Part shown: piece after piece, positions 5,553 to 17,909 of the stretch | Layout: each line of letters begins with the position of its first letter | Numbering within the stretch: the first letter of the stretch is position 1 | Source of the DNA: a virus | DNA: 20,803 bases | Direction: 5' to 3' (one strand) | IMG/VR virus record: IMGVR_UViG_3300034104_006708 | Location: 1 to 20,803 of that record | Program-made: the position numbers and the translations under genes | The notes under the pieces: generated by a model | The model's database searches: none | What the model saw: the letters and a program-made list of their open reading frames with translations, nothing else | Told to the model about the DNA's origin: nothing

Positions 5553-5622
5553 GTTCAGTCGTTTATGTAGCCCACATCTTTTCCTTGCTGCCCACGCCGG
5601 CTCATGCTTTATTGGCGGTCCT

Positions 5623-7724: not shown

Positions 7725-7760
7725 AAAAAGCCCGGCCGGGATTACTCGGTCGGGCTTTTT
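7725..7760. terminator. Bidirectional intrinsic terminator
   Basis: Perfect arms AAAAAGCCCG (7725-7734) and CGGGCTTTTT (7751-7760), extended inward by further pairs around GCCG and CGGT, give a long GC-rich stem with a small loop. A T-run follows on the plus strand (CTTTTTGTTTTGAT) and the matching A-run serves the minus strand. It lies between the converging rightward recombination operon and leftward accessory operon and should stop transcription from both sides. Confidence 0.92.
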
Positions 7761-9405: not shown

Positions 9406-9771
9406 TTATTTGCCCCCATAGATTGCTGCATCGACCTTGCTAATGTCAGTCGCGAAAAGCCGCGCCGCACGCACCAGCGCGTCATAGTGCGAGTCCGCCC
9501 AAATAACCGCTTCCCGGGGCGCGTAGAGATGCGAGACCTTGTATTGCAAAAAATCCTCGGCCGGCTCAAAAAACAAGACGAGGTTCTGTTTGCGCCAGCG
9601 AAGCTCGATGACGTCCCCGGCCCGGGTAATGAGAGCCCGGTCAGTCAAGCCGTACTCGCGGCGCACTGCGCGCAGTGCTGTTGGTTTGTCGCCGGCGATT
9701 ACGCCGCGGCGCACCCATGAGTAGTTGGGTTGGTCGCCAAATGTGTCAGTCAGTTCGTATTTCCATTTCAT
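9406..9771 (-). CDS. Hypothetical protein (121 aa)
   Basis: A soluble protein opening MKWKYELTDTFGDQPNYSWV, an opening I associate with small phage proteins of unknown function. It contains basic LRAVRREYGLTDRALITRAG, strand-like DVIELRWRKQNLVLFFEP, and the helical C-terminus SHYDALVRAARLFATDISK. The leader contains ACAAACTGATACACGACC directly before the ATG and is the end of the first linker repeat. No function can be assigned. Confidence 0.68.
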   Translation of the reverse strand: MKWKYELTDTFGDQPNYSWVRRGVIAGDKPTALRAVRREYGLTDRALITRAGDVIELRWRKQNLVLFFEPAEDFLQYKVSHLYAPREAVIWADSHYDALVRAARLFATDISKVDAAIYGGK

Positions 9772-9853
9772 GGTCGTGTATCAGTTTGTGGTTGGTGGAG
9801 CGGAAGTGCTCCCTGCTACGCCCCGGGGACCGGGGCGCAGATGGGAACGTTTA
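9772..9853 (-). repeat. Two-hairpin linker repeat, copy 1
   Basis: Fills the whole gap between the stop of the 90-aa gene and the start of the 121-aa gene. In the sense direction it reads stop, CGTTCCCATCTG, hairpin 1 (arms CTGCGCCCCGG and CCGGGGCGTAG, 3-nt loop), CAG, hairpin 2 (GGAGC-6-GCTCC), then a G-poor leader ending CTGATACACGACC before the ATG. The pyrimidine in the 3' arm of hairpin 1 is T here, giving a G-U pair in the leftward transcript. Confidence 0.9.
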
Positions 9854-10123
9854 ACGCACCGTGAGCTCGATGTCGTCAATGTAATGTTCGGCGATCTCAT
9901 GCCAATTAATTCGAGCCACTGCGCCCGCAAATAAATCAGCCGCCAGCCCGGTTGCTGGCGTTTCGTTTGTTTCGTGAAATATTTCTTCGAGCCGCACGGC
10001 TAGCGCGGCGATTGCGGCTTCCTTGGATTCGGCCTCGATTTCTTCAATCGGGCATTCATCCCACCAAAGGGGGATGAGCCAAGTCTCGCGGTTTGTCCAG
10101 CCGTTGTATTTTTCGTCATTCAT
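9851..10123 (-). CDS. Small acidic phage protein of the YNGWTNRETW type (90 aa)
   Basis: Begins MNDEKYNGWTNRETWLIPLW, a hallmark of a widespread family of small phage proteins of unknown function that start with a (Y)NGWTNxETW motif. The rest is acidic and helical (ECPIEEIEAESKEAAIAALA, then LAADLFAGAVARINWHEIAE), ending DDIELTVR. It lies between linker copies 1 and 2: its stop codon opens copy 1 and its start follows copy 2. Family membership is by recognition only and the function is unknown. Confidence 0.75.
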   Translation of the reverse strand: MNDEKYNGWTNRETWLIPLWWDECPIEEIEAESKEAAIAALAVRLEEIFHETNETPATGLAADLFAGAVARINWHEIAEHYIDDIELTVR

Positions 10124-10206
10124 GGTCGTGTATCAGTTTGTGGTTAGCGGAGCGGAAATGCTCCCTGCTGCGCCCCCGGGGGCCGGGGCGCAGACGGGAA
10201 CGCTTA
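10124..10206 (-). repeat. Two-hairpin linker repeat, copy 2
   Basis: Same module between the 222-aa and 90-aa genes. Hairpin 1 has 3' arm GGGGCGCAG, giving a full C-G pair where copies 1, 4 and 5 have G-U. Hairpin 2 keeps the GGAGC/GCTCC stem while its loop differs by one base from copy 1. The leader before the ATG is nearly identical to copy 1 (CACAAACTGATACACGACC). Confidence 0.9.
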
Positions 10207-10872
10207 GCGCAAGGCGGTCAACAAGCCGTTGTCCGGATTGATGCGCGTCAGCGGCGCTGCAAGCTGAACGATTGCCGCAAACGCGGCCTCCGGGGCCACA
10301 AACGGTACGCTAGCCCGGTTAAGGCCTACGTTTTGATGGTCCTCGATGACCTCGAGCACCGCGGCCGCAAACGCGGCAAGATTCGCTTGCGTTGGCGCCG
10401 CCGCCGATGCCGGCGTGGGTGCCGGCGTGGGTGCCGGCGTGGGTGCCCCGCCTGAGGTTTTTTGAGCGTCAGCGAGCGCTGCGCTGGCGGCTTCTGCCGC
10501 GTAGGCGTGTGCACTTACAAAAGTGCCGCCGCGCACAACGCGCACGGTGCCTTCGTAAGTCGGCTGGAGGTGATAGCCGCGATCACGCAAGTGGTGCAGG
10601 TCCTCAAGAGCCCGGGCAATGTAGCCAACGATTTCGCTGGGACTGTAAGCTTGGAGAACAATGCCGCCGCCTCCGTAGGATTTGGCTTTGTACCGGCGCC
10701 CGCCGAACTTTAGTGCCCGGCCAAGGGCAATGACGTAAAGCCGGCTGGGGTCATGCTGCCCGATGGCAAGCTGCTCTTCGGTGCTCAGCCATTGGGTGTA
10801 GTGGGTGATCCAACGGGAGTTTCCGTTGCGGTCAGCGGGGGCGCGGAGGATGTTGTCGATGGCGGTGATCAT
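10204..10872 (-). CDS. Hypothetical protein with (PTPA)n linker (222 aa)
   Basis: Two-part protein. Residues 1-120 form a mixed domain with WITHYTQWLSTEEQLAIG, LYVIALGRALKFGGRRYKAK, AYSPSEIVGYIARALEDLHH and YEGTVRVVRGG. A flexible linker follows (APTPAPTPAPTPAS, from three perfect 12-bp repeats at 10409-10444). A second, Ala-rich helical region runs to the C-terminus (ANLAAFAAAVLEVIEDHQ, then EAAFAAIVQLAAPLTRIN). No known family is recognised. It sits between linker copies 2 and 3. The leader is AACAAACTAAAAAACTAAT before the ATG, with no Shine-Dalgarno sequence. Confidence 0.68.
   Translation of the reverse strand: MITAIDNILRAPADRNGNSRWITHYTQWLSTEEQLAIGQHDPSRLYVIALGRALKFGGRRYKAKSYGGGGIVLQAYSPSEIVGYIARALEDLHHLRDRGYHLQPTYEGTVRVVRGGTFVSAHAYAAEAASAALADAQKTSGGAPTPAPTPAPTPASAAAPTQANLAAFAAAVLEVIEDHQNVGLNRASVPFVAPEAAFAAIVQLAAPLTRINPDNGLLTALR
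10409..10444. repeat. 12-bp tandem repeat inside coding sequence
   Basis: Three perfect copies of GCCGGCGTGGGT (plus strand). They encode the PTPA linker of the 222-aa protein in the leftward frame. Probably a slippage-prone linker with no separate role. Confidence 0.9.
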
Positions 10873-10958
10873 ATTAGTTTTTTAGTTTGTTGGTTTGGGT
10901 GGAGCGGAAGTGCTCCCTGCTGCGCCCCCGGGGGCCGGGGCGCAGACGGGAACGCTTA
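10873..10958 (-). repeat. Two-hairpin linker repeat, copy 3
   Basis: Occupies the gap between the 80-aa and 222-aa genes, beginning at the stop codon. Hairpin 1 matches copy 2 (GGGGCGCAG arm) and hairpin 2 matches copy 1. The leader part is the most diverged copy (CCAACAAACTAAAAAACTAAT before the ATG), but it stays A/C-rich and G-poor. Confidence 0.88.
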
Positions 10959-11198
10959 GCGGGCGTGGGCAACGAGACCGGGCTGAAAATACGCGACTAG
11001 CCTGTCACTGTCCCAGCTTGTGAACGTGTAAACGTAGAAATCGTCGGGCAAGGTCAAGACTTTGCCTTGGATAGCCCGAACGTCTTCCCAGCCGTTGGGG
11101 ACGGGAACAATAAGCAGCGGGCGCCCATTCCAATTTGTTGAGCGTTGAACTGGCAGTAACGTGCGGTTGTTAACGGTTGCGGTAGCTTGAGTTGTCAT
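10956..11198 (-). CDS. Hypothetical protein (80 aa)
   Basis: Soluble, strand-rich small protein. It starts MTTQATATVNNRTLLPVQRS, followed by WNGRPLLIVPVPNGWEDV, a central VLTLPDDFYVYTFTSW, and ends YFQPGLVAHAR. No family is recognised. The ATG at 11198 is chosen because it follows an A/C-rich leader (CTAACCACTACACGAAC) like its neighbours; upstream in-frame codons lie in the intergenic repeat and the next gene. The stop codon begins linker copy 3. Confidence 0.62.
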   Translation of the reverse strand: MTTQATATVNNRTLLPVQRSTNWNGRPLLIVPVPNGWEDVRAIQGKVLTLPDDFYVYTFTSWDSDRLVAYFQPGLVAHAR

Positions 11199-11223
11199 GT
11201 TCGTGTAGTGGTTAGAATTTGAG

Positions 11224-11266
11224 ACTGAGCCGCCATTTAAGCATGGGCTGGCGTGGGTGTCAATGG
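11224..11266 (-). repeat. Second linker type, copy A
   Basis: About 43 bases closely matching 12761-12803, with roughly four fifths of positions identical by eye. It includes the last codons and stop of the 270-aa gene and the following intergenic bases (sense: CCCATGCTTAAATGGCGGCTCAGT in two parts). It lacks the two hairpins of the main linker family. The other copy stands next to no intact equivalent gene. Confidence 0.7.
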
Positions 11267-12049
11267 GTTTCCGGTGACCCACTTTGTCGGCCGCTTGTAA
11301 AACCCGAACGCCGGGTCTTTGGCGCTCACTTCCACGGTCGCGCTGAAGCTTACCTCGGCGCCTTTGACGGTGCCGGCCGGGGCAGTGCCCCAGACCTTGC
11401 ACCCGCTCGCGAGTTGAATGAGCGCCTTGGTGATGTCCTTGGCGCCGCGCGTGTAGGGGTCAGTCTGCACGCGAGTCGAGAGGACTGTCCCGGCGAGCGT
11501 CTGCTTGCCGGCAGTAAGCCCGCCGGTGAGGCTGGCCCGGTAAGCGAGGTCGCGTTTGTGCAGGCTTACCAAAAAATCGATCTGCTTTTCGGACAGGGCA
11601 CCCCGGGAGCGCAGCTTTGTCGCAATGTCCTTGGCCGTATCGTTCACCCCGGTTTTGGCCCAATCCAAAGCCGCGATCACCTCGGTGCTGGCGGTTGCCC
11701 GGAACGCGCGCTCCCGGCGCTCGCTGGTGACGCGCTCACCCAGAGCAACGGTCGCCCGGGCGATGTCTTTGAGCAGCGGCTGGAGGCTTTCGATCTTCTC
11801 GGCGCAGGCGCGGCCGACAGGCCAGAAGGTCCCGGTGGGCAGGTGCTCGATCACCGAGGTCCATGAAATCGACCGGCCGCAGCAGGCGCACCGGTTTTCG
11901 AGTTTCGAGTTGGTTGCTTCGTAACGCTCGTACGAAGCCGTGTTGCGAACCGAGACCTCGAAGTTCTCGTACCCGGTGTCATCTTTGCCGTAGAAATAAA
12001 CGATTGCGGCGACAGTCAGTTCGTGGATTGGGGCGGATTTGATTTTCAT
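11237..12049 (-). CDS. Phage zinc-site protein with KVWG...FGFYKRPTK module (270 aa)
   Basis: Hypothetical phage protein with three parts. Residues 50-85 form a probable zinc site: ENRCACCGRSISW (Cys54, Cys57) and VGRACAEKIESL (Cys82), with His69 as a possible fourth ligand. Residues 90-170 are helical and include the LSEKQIDFLVSLHKR motif (152-166), seen in phage proteins with this zinc site. Residues 183-256 are strand-rich: LAGTVLSTRVQTD, GCKVWGTAPAG, EVSFSATVEVSAKDPAFGF and YKRPTKW. I recall this last module from other phage proteins, where an OB-like nucleic-acid or metabolite-binding role is suspected but not proven. It is the largest gene of the accessory operon. Confidence 0.72.
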   Translation of the reverse strand: MKIKSAPIHELTVAAIVYFYGKDDTGYENFEVSVRNTASYERYEATNSKLENRCACCGRSISWTSVIEHLPTGTFWPVGRACAEKIESLQPLLKDIARATVALGERVTSERRERAFRATASTEVIAALDWAKTGVNDTAKDIATKLRSRGALSEKQIDFLVSLHKRDLAYRASLTGGLTAGKQTLAGTVLSTRVQTDPYTRGAKDITKALIQLASGCKVWGTAPAGTVKGAEVSFSATVEVSAKDPAFGFYKRPTKWVTGNPLTPTPAHA

Positions 12050-12137
12050 ATTCGTGTATCAGTTTGTGTTGGTTTAAGCGGAGCGGAACTGCTCCCTGCT
12101 ACGCCCCGGGGGGCCGGGGCGCAGACGGGAACGGTTA
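12050..12137 (-). repeat. Two-hairpin linker repeat, copy 4
   Basis: Fills the gap between the stop of the 119-aa gene and the start of the 270-aa gene. Hairpin 1 has arms CTGCGCCCCGG and CCGGGGCGTAG with a 4-nt loop. Hairpin 2 has its loop changed (GGAACT) but an intact stem. The leader is CCAACACAAACTGATACACGAAT, nearly the same as copies 1 and 2. Confidence 0.9.
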
Positions 12138-12494
12138 AGCCTTTTTGAGTGCGTTGCGGTCCGTTGCCACTGTTGTTCTAGTGAGCGTGACGTACGCTGC
12201 TGGTTGCCTGCCGCCAGATTCCTCGTCTTCCGGAAGTCGGACGGTGACAAACGTTTCGTTGAACGATTCAACGCGGCCGTAATTGAAAATGCCGAACAAA
12301 TTGCGCCAGTAAACAAGTTGGTCGAGTCTGAGCGGTGCCGGCCGCTTGATTTGCTCGAGATCTGCAATCTCCCGTTCGGAAAGCGGGTAGCGAATTTCGT
12401 CAACGGCGCCGTGATGCGCGTTGACTGAGTGCCAGATGCCGTCGATTTGCGCGACAGGGCCGGTTGCGGTATTGCGGAGGTTGGTGATTTTCAT
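12135..12494 (-). CDS. Hypothetical protein (119 aa)
   Basis: Soluble protein that looks like a small beta-barrel with a helical insert. It starts MKITNLRNTATGPVAQIDGI and has WHSVNAHHGAVDEIRYPLSE, an acidic helix (REIADLEQIKR), then strands LVYWRNLFGIFNYGRVESF and NETFVTVRLPEDE. The final part is ATDRNALKKA. I do not recognise a family. It is flanked by linker copies 4 and 5, and its leader (ACTAGAAAACTGAT before the ATG) lacks a Shine-Dalgarno sequence. Confidence 0.65.
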   Translation of the reverse strand: MKITNLRNTATGPVAQIDGIWHSVNAHHGAVDEIRYPLSEREIADLEQIKRPAPLRLDQLVYWRNLFGIFNYGRVESFNETFVTVRLPEDEESGGRQPAAYVTLTRTTVATDRNALKKA

Positions 12495-12580
12495 ATCAGT
12501 TTTCTAGTTTGTGTTGGTTAGCGGAGCGGAAGTGCTCCCTGCTACGCCCCGGGGGGCCGGGGCGCAGACGGGAACGCTTA
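12495..12580 (-). repeat. Two-hairpin linker repeat, copy 5
   Basis: Rightmost copy, between the 48-aa and 119-aa genes. Both hairpins are intact and hairpin 1 is identical to copy 4. The leader reads CCAACACAAACTAGAAAACTGAT before the ATG. The stop codon of the 48-aa gene forms the edge of the repeat, as in the other copies. Confidence 0.9.
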
Positions 12581-12760: not shown

Positions 12761-12803
12761 ACTGAGCCGCTATTAAAGCATGGGTCGGCGTGGGCCGCAA
12801 TGG
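12761..12803 (-). repeat. Second linker type, copy B, possibly a relic of a lost gene end
   Basis: Matches 11224-11266. In the leftward sense it ends with a stretch similar to the last codons and stop of the 270-aa protein, but no intact gene lies upstream of it. This suggests a cassette was lost, leaving its 3' end and linker. Confidence 0.55.
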
Positions 12804-12954: not shown

Positions 12955-12970
12955 CACGCATTTTTGCACG

Positions 12971-13056
12971 CCGGGTTTCGGGGGTTTTGGGGGTTTTGGA
13001 GTTTCGGCTATGCGGCCCGGTGAATTGTCCGGGGTTTTGGGGGTTTTGGGGGTTTC
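12971..13056 (+). repeat. 9-bp G-rich repeat arrays (GGGGGTTTT type)
   Basis: Two clusters of 9-bp units. 12980-12997 holds two perfect GGGGGTTTT copies, with degenerate copies on each side (CCGGGTTTC before, GGAGTTTCG after). 13030-13056 holds three units (CGGGGTTTT, GGGGGTTTT, GGGGGTTTC). A shorter two-unit version lies in the primase gene at 2961-2978. The G-runs could form G-quadruplex-like structure on the plus strand. Confidence 0.88.
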
Positions 13057-13109
13057 GTCGCCCGGGCACTTCCTTTTTACAAAATCGGGGTAAAACGGAA
13101 GGCAAGCAA

Positions 13110-13285: not shown

Positions 13286-13552
13286 TGCATCTCCGGGGGG
13301 CCTGTAATGCTTAGAAGCATTACACGCAAGTCGTTGATAGAGAGCATTGTAATGCTTGTAATGCTTGTAATGCTTCTTTTAATGAAAAGTATCTATGACA
13401 TTGGTAAACCCCTGTAGCGCAGTAGGGTATCCGTGCAGTTTTCCGGAAAGTCTTTGAAAATCGAAAAAGAAGCATTACAAGCATTACAATGTTGAATGCC
13501 AACGTGTTACGTTGTTTTTGAGAAGCATTACAGAAGCATTACAAGCATTACA
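13281..13552. repeat. Iteron-like array of TGTAATGCT / AGCATTACA, possible origin or regulatory centre
   Basis: Ten exact 9-bp units plus one near copy. Order: TGTAATGCA (13281), TGTAATGCT (13303), AGCATTACA (13316), TGTAATGCT x3 in tandem (13348-13374), AGCATTACA x2 in tandem (13471-13488), AGCATTACA x3 (13524, 13535, 13544). The units at 13303-13324 form a near-perfect palindrome with 10-bp arms and a 2-base centre. The direct copies on the left and inverted copies on the right flank an AT-leaning core of about 96 bp (13375-13470), which also holds a small hairpin (CCCT-10-AGGG). This pattern fits a replication origin or a multi-site operator. The stretch 12725-13591 otherwise holds only doubtful small frames. 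Confidence 0.85.
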
Positions 13553-13591
13553 AAGTTGCCTTTTGGTAAACGCGGGGCACCCTTGTGTCAT

Positions 13592-17327: not shown

Positions 17328-17615
17328 ATGGGCGTCTTTGAAGCAATCACCGCCATCATGTCTTACCCGACAACAGGGAGTCAGGGAATGGACCCTAGAT
17401 TGCTACAGGCAGCACAAATGCTTTATCCGCAAAAAGCAATGGAAGAGCAAATGTCTGCTTACGACACTGCGATGCCTCAAGGCAGAAAAACTCGAAGGCC
17501 ACAGTATTCTGGCGGACTAGCAACGCAAGAAAGGTACTCCAAGCTCGATGAAAGACAGATGCTGCTTGGGTCTATGGCGGACGGAAGTAATTCGGAAATG
17601 TTACTGGGGAACTAA
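17328..17615 (+). CDS. Small LLG-tail protein, paralogue 1 (95 aa)
   Basis: Third of the set and clearly related to the next gene. It starts MGVFEAITAIMSYPTTGSQG; a helical middle (LLQAAQMLYPQKAMEEQMSA) leads to TRRPQYSGGLATQERYSKLD, then ERQMLLGSMADG and the ending SEMLLGN. The paired segments RPQYSGG, KLDERQMLLGSM and MLLGN match the following protein closely. The start has AGGAGG about 5 bases upstream, inside the previous LLGG codons. Confidence 0.58.
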   Translation: MGVFEAITAIMSYPTTGSQGMDPRLLQAAQMLYPQKAMEEQMSAYDTAMPQGRKTRRPQYSGGLATQERYSKLDERQMLLGSMADGSNSEMLLGN

Positions 17616-17906
17616 ATGGACTTTTTCAGCGTACTTTCAAAAGCATTTACGCAGATCCATCCGGTGATCTTCGAGGCCGCATTTGCCCCTGAGAAAATTC
17701 AAGAGCGAATCGATCAGACTGCCGCGGCAAAGCAGGCTGAGACAGGCGCCGGTGGATCATCTGCCCCGCGAGGCATGAGAAATCAAAAGCCACAATACAC
17801 CGCAGGACAGGGGTCTTCCGTGACAAATTACAAGCTGGACGAAAAGCAAATGATGCTTGGATCCATGATTAACGGTGGCAATTTAAGCATGTTGCTAGGG
17901 AACTAA
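17616..17906 (+). CDS. Small LLG-tail protein, paralogue 2 (96 aa)
   Basis: Fourth of the set. It starts MDFFSVLSKAFTQIHPVIFE, a likely amphipathic helix like the second member; the middle is Ala/Glu-rich, then RNQKPQYTAGQGSSVTNYKL, DEKQMMLGSMINGGN and LSMLLGN. The last 40 residues align with paralogue 1 without gaps beyond a few residues, so the pair probably arose by tandem duplication. It starts immediately after the previous stop, with GGGGA as Shine-Dalgarno sequence. No function is known. Confidence 0.58.
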   Translation: MDFFSVLSKAFTQIHPVIFEAAFAPEKIQERIDQTAAAKQAETGAGGSSAPRGMRNQKPQYTAGQGSSVTNYKLDEKQMMLGSMINGGNLSMLLGN

Positions 17907-17909
17907 AAA

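Follow-up and report, generated by a model that had tools for sequence, protein, structure and literature searches.

Structured intergenic RNAs with competing arms at phage stop codons, possibly sites of transcript cutting

The leftward operon and its repeated module

The window (the whole stretch of DNA that was analysed, 20,803 bp) is an entire virus contig. Its genes include a podovirus-type portal, a terminase, a VapE-type primase and a helicase, and it is a podovirus-like phage as judged by the portal protein. A leftward operon extending from 12,725 to 9,406 is made of small genes whose functions are unassigned, and a repeated module (copies w5 to w1) is found at five of its six junctions (Table 1). 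At the sixth junction there is no module; a promoter-like repeat (D10), common to this junction and the head of the operon, is found there instead. The operon-head copy of this repeat was not called in a sigma-70 scan of the window, and the same scan called no promoter after any of the modules w1 to w5.

Table 1. Positions of the modules, genes and other features of the operon and the window
Feature	Position	Strand	Remarks
Promoter-like repeat D10, operon head	12761..12803	-	by position and shape
Module w5	12520..12580	-	80.5 bits (covariance model)
w5 stop codon TAA	12580-12578	-
w5 arm A	12575-12570	-
w5 hairpin 1	12567-12542	-
w5 arm B	12539-12534	-
w5 arm C	12527-12523	-
AC-rich leader without Shine-Dalgarno	12495..12522	-	between w5 and ATG of 12135-12494 gene; outside module
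Gene between w5 and w4	12135..12494	-	119 aa, no known function; homologue in contig 3300042691_026652
Module w4	12077..12137	-	from stop codon of 12135-12494 gene; 78.2 bits
Gene after w4	11237..12049	-	270 aa, PHROG 4750, no known function
Promoter-like repeat D10, second copy	11224..11266	-	at the sole operon junction without module
Sixth junction	11202-11236		no module
Gene before w3	10956..11201	-	81 aa, no assigned function; no module at its own upstream junction
Module w3	10898..10958	-	from stop codon of 10956-11201 gene; 79.6 bits
Gene between w3 and w2	10204..10872	-	222 aa, TreK-like domain
Module w2	10146..10206	-	from stop codon of 10204-10872 gene; 79.1 bits
Gene between w2 and w1	9851..10123	-	90 aa, DUF7249
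Module w1	9794..9853	-	from stop codon of 9851-10123 gene; 77.1 bits
Gene after w1	9406..9771	-	121 aa, no assigned function
Standard U-tract terminator	7725-7760

The initial annotation had described five intergenic gaps as near-copies of one unit running exactly from the stop of one gene to the start of the next. All five are present on the minus strand, with 63 of 88 columns invariant and a mean identity of 88%, and all five run from a TAA stop to an ATG. A 28-base core occurs five times in the window with zero mismatches (0 occurrences in 100 shuffles). The pyrimidine position singled out in the same description is occupied by C in two copies and by T in the other three, and the resulting G-C or G-U pairing exists solely in the leftward RNA. 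The description had also counted a G-poor leader as part of the unit. Leaders in the window are C-rich and G-poor, but AC-rich leaders without a Shine-Dalgarno sequence also precede genes that have no module, and the leader does not belong to it. Among all copies considered below, most leaders are AC-rich and have no Shine-Dalgarno sequence, whilst the copy in contig L152 has one.

Two mutually exclusive folds

In the sense RNA, the order of elements is stop codon, arm A (GTTCCC), an unpaired GU, hairpin 1 (strands CUGCGCCCCGG / CCGGGGCGYAG), an unpaired CA, arm B (GGGAGC), a loop, arm C (GCUCC), the leader and the AUG. The module had been read as two independent hairpins, but arm B pairs with arm A, and its GGAGC doubles as the left strand of hairpin 2. 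A:B pairing lengthens hairpin 1 into a stem of about 20 bp (17 or more pairs) with a small 2x2 internal loop, whereas B:C pairing constitutes hairpin 2; the two pairings are mutually exclusive, so that A and C are rivals for B in every copy. By folding, the long stem formed by A:B and hairpin 1 is more stable than the hairpin 2 form. A:B together with stem 1 folds as an irregular stem of ~20 bp with an internal loop in 16 of the 18 copies and is shortened in L295 and L301, where A:B is weak as one pair is lost. When arm A was masked, or when the downstream piece (the RNA beyond the supposed cut at the internal loop) was folded alone, B:C formed in all 18 copies, the register being the usual one in 16 and shifted in L295 and L301.

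Homologues and covariation

The alignment contains 18 copies from 11 contigs or contig groups, namely the window and ten other phage contigs or groups. In the related contig 3300042691_026652, whose portal and primase are 94% and 80% identical to those of the window phage, three sequence-divergent copies are present, each at a stop codon. A hairpin 2 pattern retrieved one copy each in L152 (77.7 kb), L267 (19.6 kb) and L268 (64.4 kb), and a hairpin 1 pattern combined with covariance model scoring retrieved copies in L297 (two copies), L292, L299, L321, L295/L311/L323 and L301. In a model search of whole contigs, the copies in these last loci scored 50-76 bits, compared to a background of up to 34 bits for chance palindromes in bacterial genomes. 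Pattern and covariance model searches of phage contigs recovered homologues in which pairing is kept through changes on both sides of the stem.

In the 18-row alignment (A3), 94.1% of cells pair and two-sided changes are seen at 9 of 17 pairs; its covariation score is 0.464, compared to a mean of 0.151 for shuffled alignments and 0.07-0.14 for slid structures. B:C pairing is kept in 11/11 rows of alignment A2, with two compensatory pairs. In copy R1 of L095, arm B is GGGAACCC and arms A and C are altered to match; in copy R2, arm C is CCTCC; L295 and L301 have GGGACGGC as arm B, with A and C matching. Permutation of the arms between copies lowers the pairing energy (p about 5e-5 for B:C, about 0.01 for A:B). 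Cells of stem 1 contain 16 G-U compared to a single A-C, which indicates selection on the gene-sense RNA strand. The suggestion that the module is a functional RNA on the gene strand is borne out by both the covariation and this wobble bias.

The pattern-found copies have bases that are fixed by construction: CCCRTCTGC and GYAGCAGGGA in six contigs, and hairpin 2 bases in three. The constancy of the flanks of the internal loop is therefore partly built in, since some copies were found with patterns that fix those very bases. This constraint does not extend to the upper stem, to the outer pairs of A:B, to the remaining hairpin 2 variants or to how far the stop codon lies from stem 1.

The modules are a structured RNA family, common to unrelated phages and without a match in Rfam here: the Rfam 15 covariance models gave nothing above chance on the modules of the window, L292, L321, L297, L299, L268, L267, L295, L152, L008 and L301. 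A twister-sister match in L152 (7621-7683) lies within a reading frame and was judged to be due to chance. An exact-pattern scan of viral contigs with the core of the window gave zero matches, and the operon and two modules, when compared by blastn with 50,697 phage records, gave nothing meaningful. No convincing module was found in the other relatives L012-L019 and L086-L093. A pattern scan of bacterial genomes returned 49 matches, all poor by the model, the best being a partial one of 23.7 bits that was judged a chance match. When the model was run against 399 genomes from the Gallionella order and then against 392 from the L118 phylum, the latter search having no positive control, a single match was returned, a plain long palindrome; an earlier Gallionella match was of the same kind. 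L118 is a Phycisphaerales genome.

Hammerheads in the slot of the module

All copies lie in gene orientation and nearly all at stop codons. For 16 of the 18 copies, the distance from the start of the stop codon to stem 1 is 11-16 nt, mostly 13; the exceptions are L152, where it is 25 nt, and L321, which has no stop codon there.

An Rfam scan of the module-bearing loci detected two type II hammerheads in L268, on the strand of the module, with scores of 30.8 and 26.7 bits, i.e. below the Rfam hammerhead cut-off of 37 bits. The L268 gaps contain complete-looking cores (GGCC-GAAAC-stem III-GUC-stem I-CUGACGA-(U)GGCC) located 0-4 nt after stop codons. A descriptor search added a third L268 hammerhead, in which a single pair at the foot of stem I is mismatched, and another hammerhead in the portal-related phages L012, L013 and L019, spanning stop to start; of the approximately 3.2 Mb of loci searched (3.17 Mb, some overlapping), no other part gave a match to this descriptor. 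A match in the L267 contig was discarded as it has no CUGANGA core. In L268, hammerheads therefore take up the slot between stop codon and leader at three junctions, and the module takes it up at a fourth. The modules themselves gave zero matches to the type II hammerhead descriptor and to RF02276, whereas the neighbouring L268 gaps do match. The parallel is one of position and rests mainly on this one phage.

A candidate intercistronic cutting element

Three roles had been suggested for the module: RNA processing, insulation that equalises expression of the cistrons and a homology block for cassette swapping. RNA processing is now favoured because hammerhead ribozymes occupy the same slot in a module-bearing phage. 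What has been observed are the folds, their conservation and their position; the cut, its agent and any benefit are inferred. We consider that the module most likely is an intercistronic RNA-cutting element that would convert a long phage transcript into single-gene messages, with a probability of roughly one in two.

The proposed sequence of events is as follows. The long stem made of A:B and hairpin 1 would form first in the nascent RNA. An endonuclease, either RNase III or a phage enzyme, would then cut at or near the internal loop; cutting by the RNA itself appears less likely. Hairpin 1 would stay with the upstream message as a 3' cap, and on the downstream message B would move from A to C, so that the two pieces may separate. 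B:C would be left as a 5' hairpin on the downstream message, ahead of the open AC-rich leader.

Alternative explanations

The main rival, which has most evidence in common with cutting, is a ribosome-sensing switch. A ribosome at the stop codon would cover arm A and favour B:C, A:B would form when no ribosome is present, and the two shapes would set transcription, decay or the start of the next gene with no obligatory cut. The near-fixed distance of 11-16 nt from stop codon to stem 1 corresponds approximately to the footprint of a terminating ribosome; also in favour are the competition of A and C for B in all copies and the pairing of the stop codon with the loop of hairpin 2 that is seen in the free fold of several copies. 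On the other hand, hairpin 2 is not followed by a U-run, neither fold hides or exposes a conserved ribosome site (a Shine-Dalgarno sequence being absent from most leaders), and the hammerheads found in the same slot are left unexplained. We regard this explanation as rather unlikely. Both could hold, as a terminating ribosome over arm A would shield the cut site.

Alternatively, the module could be a DNA repeat that is mobile or prone to recombination (REP/BIME-like, or acting as a homology block in gene swaps), with the RNA fold as a by-product. Several properties of its distribution would fit. Firstly, copies within a phage are alike, and the L268 copy is nearer to those of the window than are the copies of L095, the closer relative of the window. 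Secondly, the genes on both sides are mostly unrelated between copies, as the initial annotation had noted for the window, and presence of the module is uncoupled from gene families: genes with a module in front have homologues without one in another phage (window 9406 gene, 9406..9771, whose homologue in contig 3300042691_026652 has no module in front, and L008 10574; window 8672 gene and L268 10898). Thirdly, L292 and L299 have the upstream gene and the module in common (about 81% identical DNA) and differ in their downstream genes, which provides one clear example of cassette swapping. A pure DNA repeat is argued against by the preference for G-U over A-C, which points to selection on the RNA strand, by the uniform gene orientation with nearly all copies at stop codons, and by the upper stem of L292 and L299, which has been rewritten yet still pairs. 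We consider a DNA repeat improbable.

A terminator or attenuator between cistrons, either intrinsic without a U-tract or Rho-dependent and helped by the C-rich leader, would account for strong GC-rich hairpins right after stop codons, for C-rich, G-poor leaders and for the TTTT that follows hairpin 2 in L152. However, four T in the eight bases after arm C are seen solely in L152 and L292, the other 16 of 18 copies having 0-3, whilst the window carries a real U-tract terminator elsewhere (Table 1) and none of its modules was called as one. That the module is not a simple terminator had been anticipated from its lack of a U-tract. The absence of called promoters after w1 to w5 is a further argument against termination there, and neither the conserved internal loop nor the competing arms are needed for it. 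Termination at the module is unlikely.

Doubtful, too, is the idea that the module represents a previously undescribed class of small self-cleaving ribozymes, a stand-in for the hammerhead in the same operons, in which the conserved internal loop would be the active site and the B-to-C swap would make the cut irreversible. Stop-codon read-through or ribosome bypass was rejected: in four of the five window copies the frame beyond the stop is closed no later than the next start, and the last codons before the module are unrelated.

If the module is indeed cut, several consequences follow. The known phage routes from long early transcripts to single-gene messages are RNase III sites and, it is thought, hammerheads; a new, widely shared RNA family that brings its own strand swap and lies at a near-constant distance from the stop codon would be a third solution. 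It would also represent a compact, transferable part for separating genes within an operon. As hammerheads and the module are found at different junctions of one phage, the purpose of intergenic self-cutting RNAs would become directly testable.

Comparison with known systems

REP/BIME elements of bacteria are dispersed imperfect palindromes that follow genes and have a conserved stem mismatch. The module resembles them in each of these respects; in contrast to them, it was found here in phage contigs only, always in gene orientation and at a near-fixed distance from the stop codon. Integron attC sites were also considered, and alignment inspection revealed no pair of RYYYAAC / GTTRRRY end boxes, the conserved ends of the module being TAANCGTTCCC and GCTCC.

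The SAS/ESAS elements of cluster K mycobacteriophages (PMC3203893) are, like the module, repeated intergenic inverted repeats of a non-structural region, with unrelated neighbours and a single orientation. They lie at the start codon and include a Shine-Dalgarno core, and their inverted repeats give no support for RNA pairing, whereas the module lies at the stop codon and covaries as RNA. The 13-bp SAS/ESAS sequence GGGATAGGAGCCC, found 3-7 bp before the start codon, is absent from the modules, and those of the window end about 25 nt before the ATG.

The standard substrate of RNase III, T7 R1.1, lies between genes 1.0 and 1.1 of the early region and is a stem of 60 nt interrupted by an internal loop (PMC6121014). 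The predicted fold of the module likens it to sites of this type, as both measure about 60 nt, form a long stem with an internal loop and lie between genes of one transcript. The module differs in having flanks and a stop distance that are conserved across phages, and a third arm capable of displacing the outer helix.

Clustered type II hammerheads (RF02276) of phages and prophages have been interpreted as a means of dividing long transcripts into mRNAs for single genes, and cutting was demonstrated for tandem sets (PMC3088659). Like the module, they are found between phage genes, at the stop codon, on the same strand and, in L268, in the same slot. The plan is also alike: an outer helix, a hairpin kept upstream, a cut and a hairpin kept downstream, the cut being putative in the module. 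The module has neither the GAAA, CUGANGA and cleavage-triplet core of the hammerhead nor its Rfam match, and in the module, unlike in the hammerhead, the outer helix and the second hairpin use a common strand and are mutually exclusive.

Repeats and hammerhead ribozymes

A promoter-like element with the pattern TTGC..CCCACG..CATGCTTTAAT is repeated at three gene heads in the window, where it was not called by a standard sigma-70 scan; similar stretches occur near 1660, 2845 and 7670 in L095, a module-bearing relative. The cluster of AAGCATTACAAGCATTACAA repeats is perhaps a control or replication region, and the GGGGGTTTTGGGGGTTTTGG repeats are G-quadruplex-like. Two adjacent small genes share an end stretch reading KLDEKQMMLGS..MLLGN, and the 71% identity of these ends suggests that the pair arose by tandem duplication.

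Three putative type II hammerhead ribozymes with apparently complete cores are located between accessory genes of L268 (IMGVR_UViG_3300034104_004892, a 64 kb phage contig), each at a stop codon. In L012, L013 and L019, phages related to the window through the portal protein, a type II hammerhead occupies precisely the interval between two genes, with the stop codon of the first at one end and the ATG of the second at the other.

Coordinates of repeats and hammerheads
Feature	Genome	Position	Remark
Promoter-like repeat	window	5573-5618, 11224-11266, 12761-12803	
GGGGGTTTTGGGGGTTTTGG repeats	window	12969-13063	in or close to small leftward reading frame (89 aa)
AAGCATTACAAGCATTACAA repeats	window	13324-13560	direct and inverted, dense; between divergent genome halves
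Small-gene ends	window	17540-17616, 17831-17907	
Type II hammerhead	L268	7564-7620	minus strand
Type II hammerhead	L268	7945-8005	minus strand
Type II hammerhead	L268	10513-10570	reverse-complement positions
Type II hammerhead	L012	3330-3381	also in L013, L019
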